A stretch of DNA of 64,000 nt, taken from NCBI RefSeq assembly GCF_000974425.1, contig NZ_CP010429.1, positions 4,635,501 through 4,699,500 on the forward strand. Direction: 5' to 3'. Position 1 is the stretch's first letter, and each line of letters begins with the position of its first letter. The translations under genes and the position numbers were made by a program. Shown in pieces: positions 11,688-59,621 of this stretch. Origin of the DNA: Spirosoma radiotolerans (lineage in GTDB: Bacteria; Bacteroidota; Bacteroidia; Cytophagales; Spirosomataceae). Under the pieces are notes generated by a model that searched no databases, was not told the origin of the DNA, and worked only from the letters and a program-made list of their open reading frames with translations.

Positions 11688-11764
11688 GTAGAATTGCATG
11701 AGGTTTTAAGAAGCCTTGCTATTCAGGTTTAAGGGACCTATTTTGTTAGTCGTTAATGAATTGA

Positions 11765-12493: not shown

Positions 12494-12526
12494 AAAAAAT
12501 TAACGGCGTAATAAGATGTAGCGGTG

Positions 12527-12624
12527 AAGTCGGTTATAAATAAATAACCGACTTGTGTGGTTCCTCAAGATCGAACGAGCCACATAGATCGGAAGAAACC
12601 TCGCGAGCCAGATTTAAGAATCTG
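12527..12624. repeat. Decayed copy of the RAYT-associated hairpin array
   Basis: Two of the four palindromes remain recognisable: AAGTCGGTTA (12527-12536) with TAACCGACTT (12545-12554), here with an 8-nt loop, and CAGATT-TAAG-AATCTG (12609-12624). The order and final TAAG tetraloop match the copy at 59443-59539. The middle part is degenerate. Confidence 0.5.
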
Positions 12625-12645
12625 CCTTCACTTAAATTCATTTTA

Positions 12646-36732: not shown

Positions 36733-36764
36733 TGGATTGGTGAGTGTCGGTTGTGTTTATAGGC

Positions 36765-36880
36765 TGTGGTGTCGGGTTCTCAAACCCGACACAGGGAGGT
36801 TTCTCAAAACTTCCTTAATTAATCAACCAGCAGCACGCGGTTTTGAGAAACCGCTCATGTCAGTTTTAAGAAACTGACAT
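36765..36880. repeat. Four-hairpin REP-like array, copy A (upstream of RAYT)
   Basis: 116 nt containing four palindromes in order: stems 36769-36778/36783-36792 (loop CTCA), 36795-36802/36807-36814 (loop CTCA, one G.T pair), 36837-36843/36848-36854 (loop TGAG) and 36857-36866/36871-36880 (loop TAAG). Copy B downstream of the transposase is the same length, same orientation and identical at 106 of 116 positions. Confidence 0.85.
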
Positions 36881-36935
36881 CACAGAACCACTGATAAATC
36901 AACTAATTCCCATTTCAACGTGGCGTCATTATCAT

Positions 36936-36976
36936 AAACTCGTCTTACAGGGTATACCTAAAAGACGAGTTTTTTT
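36936..36976 (+). terminator. Terminator abutting the RAYT start codon
   Basis: 11-bp stem AAACTCGTCTT/AAGACGAGTTT (36936-36946 with 36962-36972) and a T run that ends on the base before the ATG at 36977. It would block read-through transcription into the transposase and also hide its ribosome site. Confidence 0.75.
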
Positions 36977-37513
36977 ATGGGATTGCGCAATCGAAGTCTG
37001 TTAACTGAGGAACGTTGCTTTTTCATCACAACTACTTGCTACCGGCACTTACCTCTACTAGCCGATCCGACCTGTTTTGGTATTCTGTTCGATAGCTTTC
37101 TGTTCTATAACAAAAAGTACAAAGCAAAGCTGCTGGCCTATGTACTCCTGAATAACCATATTCATTTCATCATTTATTTTCCGGAAGAAACGCGGCTGAT
37201 GGATTATATTCGAGACTTCAAGAAGTTTACATCGCTGAAACTACGAGAATATATTGAAACAAATTATCCAGATCAAGTTTGGTATATCGAATATAAAAAG
37301 CGTACCCAACACTTTAAGATCTGGGAAGATCGATACGATGATGTGTACCTTCACTCACGCAGCGTCTGCGAGATAAAAATCGACTATATCCACAACAACC
37401 CAGTGCGCGCTGGATTAGTCAGCAATCCGGCCGACTATCCTTATTCTAGCGCTGCATTTTATGAAGGCAAGCGGGAGAAATCGCAATTAATGCATTATCT
37501 AGAGGTGTTTTGA
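36977..37513 (+). CDS. REP-associated tyrosine transposase (RAYT, IS200/IS605-like)
   Basis: 178-residue Y1 HUH nuclease. The HUH motif is NNHIHFI (His61, His63). The candidate nucleophile Tyr lies in WEDRYDDVY (Tyr120 or Tyr124). The C-terminal signature DYIHNNPVRAGLV...DYPYSS is typical of RAYTs, single-copy domesticated relatives of IS200 transposases that mobilise short palindromic REP repeats. The gene is bracketed by two direct 116-nt arrays of four hairpins (36765 and 37535), the expected DNA substrates. A terminator runs directly into its start codon, so expression is probably kept low. No second transposon gene is present. Confidence 0.92.
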   Translation: MGLRNRSLLTEERCFFITTTCYRHLPLLADPTCFGILFDSFLFYNKKYKAKLLAYVLLNNHIHFIIYFPEETRLMDYIRDFKKFTSLKLREYIETNYPDQVWYIEYKKRTQHFKIWEDRYDDVYLHSRSVCEIKIDYIHNNPVRAGLVSNPADYPYSSAAFYEGKREKSQLMHYLEVF

Positions 37514-37534
37514 AGTCATGTAATAGCTATGGAC

Positions 37535-37650
37535 TGTGGTGTCGGTTTCTCAAAACCGACACAGGGAGGTTTTGAGAAACCTCCTTAATTAACCAATCAG
37601 CAACACGCGGTTTTGAGAAACCGCTCATGTCAGTTTTAAGAAACTGACAT
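37535..37650. repeat. Four-hairpin REP-like array, copy B (downstream of RAYT)
   Basis: Stems 37539-37548/37553-37562 (loop CTCA), 37565-37572/37577-37584 (loop TGAG), 37607-37613/37618-37624 (loop TGAG) and 37627-37636/37641-37650 (loop TAAG). Compared with copy A, hairpin 1 has a compensatory G-C to T-A change, and the loop of hairpin 2 is reversed. The hairpin structures are therefore preserved while the sequence varies. Confidence 0.85.
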
Positions 37651-37655
37651 TACTC

Positions 37656-37753
37656 ACAATAATGGACATTGCTAACAAGAAACTGACACCACTGACAAGA
37701 AACTGACATCACTGACAAGAAACTAACACCACTGACAATAACGGACATTGCTG
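37656..37753. repeat. Tandem 20-nt repeat next to copy B
   Basis: Five units: a 19-nt unit (37656-37674), three 20-nt units related to ACAAGAAACTGACACCACTG (37675-37734), and a 19-nt unit (37735-37753) that resembles the first. The word AAACTGACA is also in the right arm of hairpin 4, so the array may have grown from the end of copy B. Confidence 0.75.
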
Positions 37754-37776
37754 AACGTCACTACACGAACCTTCCT

Positions 37777-57763: not shown

Positions 57764-59437
57764 TTATCGGCGAATCAGTTTGTTTCTCAATTCGCTGATC
57801 ACCTGACGCGTTTCGTCGACGCGGGTTTTGAGCCCTTTCTTATAATACCAGGCCCGGAATTCGGGGTTATCGTGGTGCGTTTCGAGTTCCTGCTCCAATT
57901 CACGAAGGTACTTTTCACTCAGGGTTAGGTAGCGTTCAACGGATTCAGGATTGTGAAACCCATCTCCATCAACGCTCACATATACAGGCGTTGTGTGGGC
58001 CGCCTGTCGGGATTTCCCATAGCACCGGGCCGCAATCCAGAGGCCATGCGCCACAGACGGAAGCTCTATGGTTAGGGCTAACCGCCCCGTCGATTGACCC
58101 GAATCCTGTTTCGTGACTCGACCCAGTACCCGACCGTGGGCGATAATTTCCAGAGTGTCGAGTGGCGTCTGACCGGGATGGCCCAGGGCTTCGGCCCGGA
58201 TGCGCAGCCCGCTTCCCTTCATCAACGCAACCCGGTCACCGGGCAAGGCATCGTTGACACTGAAGGTAAGAACAGGGCCACTGGTCACGAATGTATGTCC
58301 GGCGGCTACGGCTTCTTTCCAGGCGGTATAACTGAACGGTTTATTGAGATAGGTGTAGAAACGGGCGTTCCCAATCCGGGCCGACTGTTCGGGTGGGCCA
58401 TGATCGTGGTCGTGCCCACACCAGGGGAAATCCGACCCAGCCGTAGCCGTCAGCGGAAATCCCAGGTCCAGCATGTGGTAATACTGTTCCGTGCGCAGGG
58501 GTTGATCCGACACGCAATATTGCAGCAGTTCCAGCATATCGACTTTGCGACGCAAGCCATCGAGGGTAAGTCCCCGGTAGCCATGAAACGATTCGGCCTG
58601 GTGCGCGTATCCAGTCAGGCCACCGCGTTTGTGCAATTCGTCAAAAACCTTGTCGTAGTAATAATAATCCTGCTTATAACGCACAGCCCCCGTAGCGCCA
58701 AACCCCAGGGCGTGGCCCAGTTCGGGCGTTCGGGGGTCTTCCTGACCGGCCGTCAACAGATAATTCCCGGATTGATAGTTTCCCTGCTCACCGAAAGCGT
58801 ATTGGGGATAATAGGTTTCCCAGAAATCGCCCATTTTGAGCAGAACGCCCACGTTCAGATCTTCGGCCTGGAGCCAGTTCATCAAGGACTGGTTTTCGCC
58901 CGGTGAGCGCCGGATATGGATATGATCATCGGCCGAATACCAGCCCCGTGCCCCCATATTGATCCAGCGTGTCAGGGTGTAGGTTTTCTGAAGCGCCTGA
59001 TTGGGTTTTATAACAAGCGTATGCTGCTGATTGACGTACTCATTTCCCTTCATCAGGGTGAGCTGATAGGTGCCCGGCGGTAGCGGCAGAGTAAATTGCC
59101 CCGGCACGTAAAACGAACTATCGGGTTGATACCTGTAGCCATCGGCATGGTCCCATAAGCCATACGAAACCGCTGCGACTTCTTTTGGCAGTGTTTTTAT
59201 GGGTTTCCCACCCTGCGTCAACCGCACCCGAACGGCGGTGAGCTTGCCTGTCTTGCCATCGCGCACGGCAATATGTAGTGAGCCGGACGGCTTACTTATC
59301 TGAGCATAGGTGTTTTTTTGTGCAATGAAGTAAACTATTCCAGTCAATATGCAGTAAAAAAAGCCAGTAGACAGCCATTTCGGTATACAACGCAAATGAA
59401 TCTTGCCGTGTAAGACAGATAACCTTATAGGCTGCAT
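57764..59437 (-). CDS. CehA/McbA-type PHP metallohydrolase, secreted
   Basis: 557 residues from the ATG at 59437. A signal-anchor (WLSTGFFYCILTGIVYFIAQ) precedes a beta-sandwich region (about 50-160, RVRLTQGGKPIKTLP; PGTYQLTLMKGNEY). The PHP-like metal site follows: GWYSADDHIHIRR, LTAGQED, GYAHQAE and TATAGSDFPW. A C-terminal beta domain ends in a coiled coil (SEKYLRELEQELETHH). CehA/McbA enzymes hydrolyse carbamate esters or related bonds, but most family members are uncharacterised. A longer frame opens at 59581, but its first 48 residues read through a four-hairpin repeat (59443-59539). That part is probably not coding. Confidence 0.85.
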   Translation of the reverse strand: MQPIRLSVLHGKIHLRCIPKWLSTGFFYCILTGIVYFIAQKNTYAQISKPSGSLHIAVRDGKTGKLTAVRVRLTQGGKPIKTLPKEVAAVSYGLWDHADGYRYQPDSSFYVPGQFTLPLPPGTYQLTLMKGNEYVNQQHTLVIKPNQALQKTYTLTRWINMGARGWYSADDHIHIRRSPGENQSLMNWLQAEDLNVGVLLKMGDFWETYYPQYAFGEQGNYQSGNYLLTAGQEDPRTPELGHALGFGATGAVRYKQDYYYYDKVFDELHKRGGLTGYAHQAESFHGYRGLTLDGLRRKVDMLELLQYCVSDQPLRTEQYYHMLDLGFPLTATAGSDFPWCGHDHDHGPPEQSARIGNARFYTYLNKPFSYTAWKEAVAAGHTFVTSGPVLTFSVNDALPGDRVALMKGSGLRIRAEALGHPGQTPLDTLEIIAHGRVLGRVTKQDSGQSTGRLALTIELPSVAHGLWIAARCYGKSRQAAHTTPVYVSVDGDGFHNPESVERYLTLSEKYLRELEQELETHHDNPEFRAWYYKKGLKTRVDETRQVISELRNKLIRR

Positions 59438-59442
59438 ATGCC

Positions 59443-59539
59443 TGTGGTGTTGGTTACTTATAACCGACACGTGAGGTTTCTCAAAACCTCGCATAGTTTG
59501 GTTATAAGTAACCGCACATGTCAGATTTAAGAATCTGAC
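59443..59539. repeat. Four-hairpin REP-like array, distant copy D
   Basis: Same layout as the arrays flanking the RAYT: stems 59447-59456/59461-59470 (loop CTTA, one G.T), 59473-59479/59484-59490 (loop CTCA), 59500-59504/59509-59513 (loop TAAG) and 59520-59527/59532-59539 (loop TAAG). It sits between truC and the CehA/McbA gene, 22 kb from the RAYT. Confidence 0.75.
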
Positions 59540-59621
59540 CCCACTCAACCCTGTTTTACAAGCGAGCTTTTTATGAAGCATATTGGAGAGGGTGTCTATT
59601 TTTTTGTGCTACTTGCGGGCA

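Follow-up and report, generated by a model that had tools for sequence, protein, structure and literature searches.

The question raised by this locus is whether a gene of the RAYT type and the two similar arrays of hairpins on either side of it belong to one system and, if so, to which kind. It is very probable that they do, i.e., that the gene encodes a RAYT accompanied by its cognate population of REPINs. The results below give good support to a RAYT-REPIN system whose kind is known, if poorly described, and which is marked by a composite REP and an oriented, largely lineage-specific loop. Positions refer to the window, i.e., the whole stretch of 64,000 nucleotides that was analysed.

The ORF between the arrays encodes a 178-aa protein of the RAYT type (Y1 HUH). 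It scores 105.9 bits against the curated model NF047646 («REP-associated tyrosine transposase», cut-off 80) and 27.2 bits against PF01797 (Y1_Tnp, cut-off 23); against NF033573 (IS200/IS605) the score is 20.3 bits, i.e., below the cut-off of 55 for an IS200 transposase. The HUH motif and the catalytic Tyr are present within a TnpA_REP fold, Tyr137 being the counterpart of Y115 of the E. coli protein. The description in an earlier note on this DNA, i.e., a RAYT of 178 residues between two similar direct repeats of four hairpins, is thus confirmed.

The two copies of the direct repeat, at 36758-36883 and 37528-37653, each span 126 nt, lie 770 nt apart and are 90% identical. From its GTG foot to its CAC foot, REPIN 1 covers 36766-36883, slightly more than the earlier note gave for it. 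The loops are, in order, CTCA, CTCA, TGAG and TAAG in array 1, and CTCA, TGAG, TGAG and TAAG in array 2. The compensatory change pointed out previously (G-C at 36776/36785 vs. T-A at 37546/37555) and the reversal of the second loop (CTCA vs. TGAG) are both present. The features are collected in Table 1, where R1 is a covariance model of the REP unit.

Table 1. Features of the RAYT locus and related units in the window.
Feature	Position	Strand	Details
RAYT (TnpA_REP-like Y1 HUH endonuclease)	36977..37513	+	HUH motif NHIH, catalytic Tyr137
REPIN 1, left REP unit	36759..36818	+	R1 64.7 bits; foot GTGG 36766-36769; hairpin A 36769-36792 (CTCA); hairpin B 36795-36814 (CTCA)
REPIN 1, right REP unit (inverted)	36832..36890	-	R1 75.9 bits; hairpin B' 36837-36854 (TGAG on +); hairpin A' 36857-36880 (TAAG on +); foot CAC 36881-36883
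REPIN 2, left REP unit	37529..37588	+	R1 53.2 bits; hairpin A 37539-37562 (CTCA); hairpin B 37565-37584, loop flipped to TGAG
REPIN 2, right REP unit (inverted)	37602..37660	-	R1 74.0 bits; hairpin B' 37607-37624; hairpin A' 37627-37650; foot changed to TAC
Degenerate half-REP tail, ~20-nt period (AAGAAACTGACAYCACTGAC)	37651..37760	+	Repeat families D2, D4
Another REPIN of the same family, distant from the RAYT	59437..59551		R1 71.9 (+), 63.6 (-) bits
Degenerate REPIN of the same family	12517..12638		R1 29.5 (+), 33.0 (-) bits
Weaker R1 match	11695-11751		17.2 bits

As single-stranded DNA, both arrays have a fold z of -8.3 against 200 shuffles. The predicted minimum-energy fold of array 2 consists of the four hairpins, whereas in that of array 1 the inner hairpins B and B' pair together. 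Such pairing across the opposite REPs would give an alternative fold, which the loop flip could prevent. Each half-REP of the tail that follows array 2 is made of the 3' half of hairpin A and a CAC foot; runs of half-REPs trailing a REPIN were also seen at locus L103.

The copies of the unit share one plan: a foot GTGN, a hairpin A (stem NNGTCRG, apex TT[CTYA]AA), a hairpin B with the same apex (GAGGTTT[CTYA]AAACCTC, 23-24 nt from A, apex to apex), a spacer, and then the inverted REP. On these sequence grounds, the four-hairpin array is a REPIN, i.e., two inverted copies of one composite REP of two hairpins, and the reversed loop of array 2 is one of several flips of hairpin B; since its two arms mirror each other as inverted repeats, a flip of B alters only the loop. 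Pairs of R1 matches on opposite strands, as expected of REPINs (inverted REP pairs in many copies), are found in the window, in this genome and in others. The form that had been described as a four-hairpin cassette is indeed unusual, even if it resolves into two REPs. The distinct «loop code» proposed with it is given up: CTCA and TGAG represent a single loop type (CTYA), seen from one strand or the other of an inverted repeat, with occasional flips in B.

The alignment comprises 30 units of this genome (32 were found and two overlapping palindromic ones omitted; 3 of the 30 come from the RAYT locus). Both sides of the stem have changed in 42 cells vs. 12.6 in shuffles, and 94.4% of the stem cells pair, which bears out the initial remark that the differences respect the fold. 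Pairing is lower in hairpin B (91% vs. 97%), the base of which is open in 9 of 30 cases. A further count concerns 42 A hairpins chosen for their GTG foot, from 34 loci of this genome picked by likeness to the array, hence with a bias toward units with B. Hairpin B is found in 34 of the 42, at 23 nt (28) or 24 nt (6). The A loops are CTNA (38), CTTG (1) or reversed (3), and the B loops CTYA (29) or flipped to TGAG (5). The foot is GTGG in 20, GTGA in 12, GTGC in 8 and GTGT in 2.

The repeats are not unique to the RAYT locus, which was the first test proposed for the coupling, and the REPs flanking this gene are, like those of other RAYTs, dispersed in the genome. The source genome is a single contig of 7.03 Mb, and the nearest named relatives belong to Spirosoma. 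The array has 46 blast matches in it, GTTTYTCAAAAC is present 43 times vs. 4 for the reversed control, and R1 has at least 99 matches (all per-genome R1 counts are lower bounds, no more than 150 candidates having been scored in any genome). The units are mostly intergenic: 25 of 28 tested loci (from the 34) lie outside ORFs of at least 100 aa, 16 between tandem, 8 between convergent and 1 between divergent genes. This distribution and the strong folding of the arrays would also be expected of terminators, attenuators or mRNA-stabilising structures that flank the gene by chance, the RAYT being inactive on them. That reading is very improbable, since no T-run was found by inspection 3' of the hairpins of the two arrays, and since it leaves unexplained the foot, the oriented loop, the pairing of inverted units and the enrichment beside RAYTs of this kind (36- to 61-fold, see below).

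Within the genus, R1 matches occur in at least 25 of 36 genomes. Five of the 35 relatives carry a close RAYT ortholog, at 66-78% identity, and REP units adjoin all six close orthologs, the RAYT of the window included. The six genomes that carry one have at least 99 (G000), 81 (G003), 123 (G014), 150 (G022), 107 (G026) and 105 (G035) matches. The 30 genomes without a close ortholog fall into three groups: 11 with none among the matches listed, 15 with at least 1-49, and 4 unit-rich ones (at least 122 in G005, 150 in G008, 91 in G010 and 134 in G021). The proposed coupling of RAYT and repeats is supported, every close ortholog being flanked, but at least 19 of the 30 genomes without a close ortholog hold at least one unit. 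Repeats in relatives devoid of RAYT had been named as a finding that would speak against the coupling, and in this respect the objection is partly justified; the pattern fits a loss of the RAYT, without proving it. As for other RAYT-type genes, the scan covered 25 loci, made up of 24 weaker homologs and this genome's second PF01797 gene, and a further 59 around RAYT-model matches (some overlapping, and a subset of all matches to the model); an R1 match was found beside one gene only, a weak one (18.5 bits) at G005:C1:811479-811946. Up to 13 RAYT-model matches per genome were counted in G008, G010, G016 and other relatives.

Five of the six orthologs sit between a PIG-L and a NUDIX gene, and the sixth (G026) lies at a contig end beside NUDIX. 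This locus was scanned in 30 of the 36 genomes: 24 are without RAYT, both neighbours were found in 18 of these 24, and tblastn (E<=0.01) detected no RAYT remnant at the locus. A REP match of at least 20 bits lies beside NUDIX in 4 of the 18 RAYT-less loci (G001, G015, G021, G027), and G021 keeps a full REPIN there (65.5 and 58.6 bits). The unit-rich G005 and G010 have no such match at the locus, and in G008 the two genes are non-adjacent in the stretches seen. On a tree built from the two neighbours (15 of 33 inner branches starred), the presence of the RAYT requires five changes. G007, G010 and G027 cluster with this genome, G008 is near G003 and G022, and G005 groups with G014; three of the four unit-rich genomes without ortholog are therefore near RAYT-bearing ones. 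The exception, G021, clusters with G001 and G015, all three being RAYT-less. The pairs test has four pairs on starred branches, which is too few; 3.1 of them go the same way, 0 the other way, and 0.8 show no difference. The simplest reading is that the RAYT is likely an old resident gene, lost several times with its REPINs left behind; it may instead have been gained by exchange at the same locus.

The stable position also bears on the possibility of a small autonomous IS200-like element, in which RAYT and flanking repeats would transpose together. Outside Spirosoma, 20 upstream units lie on the + strand and 27 downstream units on the - strand, vs. 9 and 8 in the opposite sense, so that the RAYT gene is mostly inside an inverted pair, as such an element would have it; moreover, in G014 the gene stands in opposite orientation at the same PIG-L/NUDIX locus (L295 / L338). 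The latter may result from an inversion between the flanking repeats or from an independent arrival. We consider an autonomous element very improbable, given that each of the six genomes has a single close copy, with no near-identical copies at several places, that the orthologs keep the same neighbours, and that the score for NF033573 is far below its cut-off.

The distribution of hairpin B differs from that of hairpin A. It was seen in none of the non-Spirosoma flanks read, and nearly all the copies at the 69 hit loci inspected in G014 have one hairpin per REP; the two best matches of that genome look two-hairpin (L110, 49.0 bits; L298, 45.8 bits). The RAYT of G014 is outside the clade of the other five orthologs (87/94, unstarred), and the RAYT-less G005, close to G014 on the neighbour tree, carries B-type units (L104). 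Hairpin B was possibly gained in the five-ortholog clade or lost in G014. It could be thought that B is outside the recognised unit, i.e., debris that fold-back copying or the decay of REPs has left beside A. Its absence from nearly all the G014 copies and from the flanks of L193, the existence of perfect palindromes with either A or B as their hinge, and the flipped loops (5 of 34 B vs. 3 of 42 A) are in keeping with this. On the other hand, debris would hardly keep to a spacing of 23 or 24 nt in all 34 of 34 cases when 19-30 nt were allowed, nor show compensatory changes at 3 of the 7 pairs of its stem, nor be included in whole-unit matches of 59-60 nt, which are among the best matches in several other genomes of the genus. 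An origin as debris is thus rather unlikely, and the most likely role of B is that of an additional hairpin for docking or for stabilising the fold.

Beyond the genus, 80 relatives of the RAYT from named genomes were considered; many of these are metagenome bins, the labels of which may be wrong. The core hairpin flanks related RAYTs labelled Bacteroidota, Ignavibacteria, Zixibacteria and Planctomycetes. The 42 loci from outside Spirosoma (L191-L232) yield 75 R1 matches up to E 1, of which 64 are no more than 300 nt from the RAYT, 4 fall within the gene and 7 are elsewhere; a near match is present at 33 of the 42 loci. A motif search (GTCNG stem of 6-8 bp, loop of 3-5 nt) finds the core hairpin at this distance from the RAYT in 39 of these 42 loci, and in 8 of 35 more distant ones (L233-L267). 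There are 117 motif records near RAYTs vs. 22 in 305 kb elsewhere, some hairpins being counted on both strands in either set; 38 of the 117 have no GTG or CAC foot within 5 nt. The hairpin is enriched 36- to 61-fold beside RAYTs of this kind. What these relatives have in common is hairpin A, with its foot and the polarity of its loop.

Read from the GTG foot, the 76 loops near RAYTs (hairpins footed at both ends being counted twice) are TTAC (26), TTTC (21), CTCA (7), TTCC (6), CTTA (4), four other pyrimidine-first forms (1 each), TGT (3) and reversed (5). The loops were placed on a tree of 33 RAYTs, from which 10 RAYTs without footed hairpin, 4 without clean translation and some further loci were left out; for the window, L188 and L189 the labels were entered by hand. 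The CTYA loop has one origin (support 99/97; 0 of 500 shuffles as low). TTAC requires 5 changes (1 of 500 shuffles) and TTTC 6 (8 of 500), and TTCC is not clustered (4 changes, 500 of 500 shuffles). All classes together require 13 changes vs. 18.9 in shuffles (0 of 200 as low). It must be kept in mind that these shuffles test clustering only, and that near-copies alone yield clustering. The clustering suggests that the loop, in identity and polarity, has largely though not strictly been passed on together with the RAYT, which would be expected if it is a recognition signal open to change.

At locus L191 (a Microscillaceae MAG), ten direct copies of GTTGGATT[CTCA]AATCCAAC were seen within 500 nt upstream of the related RAYT; many are 28-30 nt apart, and they take the place of inverted pairs.

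Anatomy, dispersal, coupling and the partial inheritance of loop and foot can be read from sequence comparison; the mechanism can be proposed by analogy. As suggested by work on TnpA_REP, the RAYT would bind REP DNA in single-stranded form, as at a replication fork. It would read the GTG foot and the oriented loop, in which case one strand only would be a substrate. Tyr137, with a metal site formed by His61 and His63, would cut the strand next to the hairpin, and a 5'-phosphotyrosine and a free 3'-OH would result. The REPIN would then be moved or multiplied in trans, by strand transfer or by copying from the 3' end, the RAYT gene itself staying in place.

Palindromes are a further trait of these genomes. 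Among 85 hairpins examined in G014, the arms of 17 are perfect over 20-35 nt, i.e., 7-22 nt past the 13-nt arm of the REP. The extended arms lie in differing flanking sequences and are perfect inverted copies of unique host DNA around a 4-nt loop. Solo REPs with this property include L317, L323, L344, L357, L362, L363, L366 and L369, among others; at L366 and L352, nested or tandem pieces of REP are mirrored in both arms. By eye, a T-run is close to some of these palindromes (L369, L317) and absent at most. One palindrome is absent from the four orthologous gene ends compared. In the genome under study, L016 (~3856.4 kb) and L028 (~5569.0 kb) are perfect or near-perfect palindromes hinged on one 4-nt loop, with A flanked by B on either side or B flanked by A. 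Copying of the flank from a folded 3' end fits the G014 palindromes better than insertion into a ready-made hairpin; they could also be a replication error independent of the RAYT.

A more inclusive model can be put forward, tentatively. The RAYT would read a code at the tip of the hairpin (GTGN and an oriented, lineage-specific loop of four bases, inherited with the RAYT in several phyla); in one lineage the substrate would have been enlarged to two hairpins in fixed register; and the REP hairpins of the genus would serve for snap-back priming, in which the 3' end at a nick folds on the hairpin and copies the flank, so making palindromes and inverted REP pairs.

The closest known kind is probably RAYT group 5, i.e., TnpA_REP subclass 2.6, described in Bacteroidetes with flanking «atypical secondary structures» (Quentin et al. 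2018, PMC6006769). The lineage, which the earlier note took to be possibly undescribed, was thus probably already reported. According to Table 1 of that paper, subclass 2.6 has ~179 aa, NH[LIV]H, YIH[QN]NP, W-Q and a C-terminal SS. The present RAYT (178 aa, NHIH, YIHNNP, C-terminal YPYSSAAFY) agrees in taxon, size, both motifs and the serine pair of the C-terminal tail, as well as in the atypical flanking structures with copies elsewhere in the genome and in the unconserved guide-contact region (PMC6006769). It differs by W116-E117 instead of W-Q, the residue following W being variable across 40 aligned RAYT sequences, and perhaps by its GTGN foot (GTGG in 20 of the 42 hairpins chosen for a GTG foot), no GT[AG]G foot being reported for the subclass in the text available. 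Neither a REP consensus, nor loop polarity, nor a two-hairpin REP appears in that text, and its Table S1 may list such hairpins.

The E. coli TnpA_REP (PDB 4er8; Y/Z REPs, BIMEs; subclass 2.2 / group 2) is 23% identical over 144 aligned residues; unlike in that system, the REP here has a GTGN foot, a regular stem, an oriented loop and a second hairpin. The likeness to Stenotrophomonas maltophilia (group 3) is in the short REP with a perfect stem and in the importance of loop orientation, as reversal of the loop severely affects cleavage there; its REP has a GTAG foot, a 3-nt loop and a single hairpin, vs. GTGN, 4 nt and two hairpins (PMC8266576). The same source reports that in Marinomonas it is the foot that guides where the cut is made, and suggests that replication or transfer might make use of the 3'-OH. 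As in the REPINs of Bertels and Rainey (2011, PMC3116915), the unit is made of two inverted REPs, but each of these has two hairpins here.

The choice of REPs by RAYTs has been tested in few systems; one study used Escherichia, Stenotrophomonas and Marinomonas (PMC8266576). For a poorly described subclass, the probable recognition signal can now be spelled out, changes of the loop can be aligned with changes of the protein on a tree, and the two-hairpin REP represents a natural change in the complexity of the substrate. Together they make the question of specificity testable with matched pairs of enzyme and substrate from environmental bacteria. A model of the R1 type can be used to find and count these REPs in other genomes of the group.

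Immediately upstream of the RAYT, a terminator-like inverted repeat is present at 36936-36976 (arms of 16 nt, 88% complementary), with a T-run that abuts the start codon. It may act on translation of the RAYT, by attenuation or sequestration.
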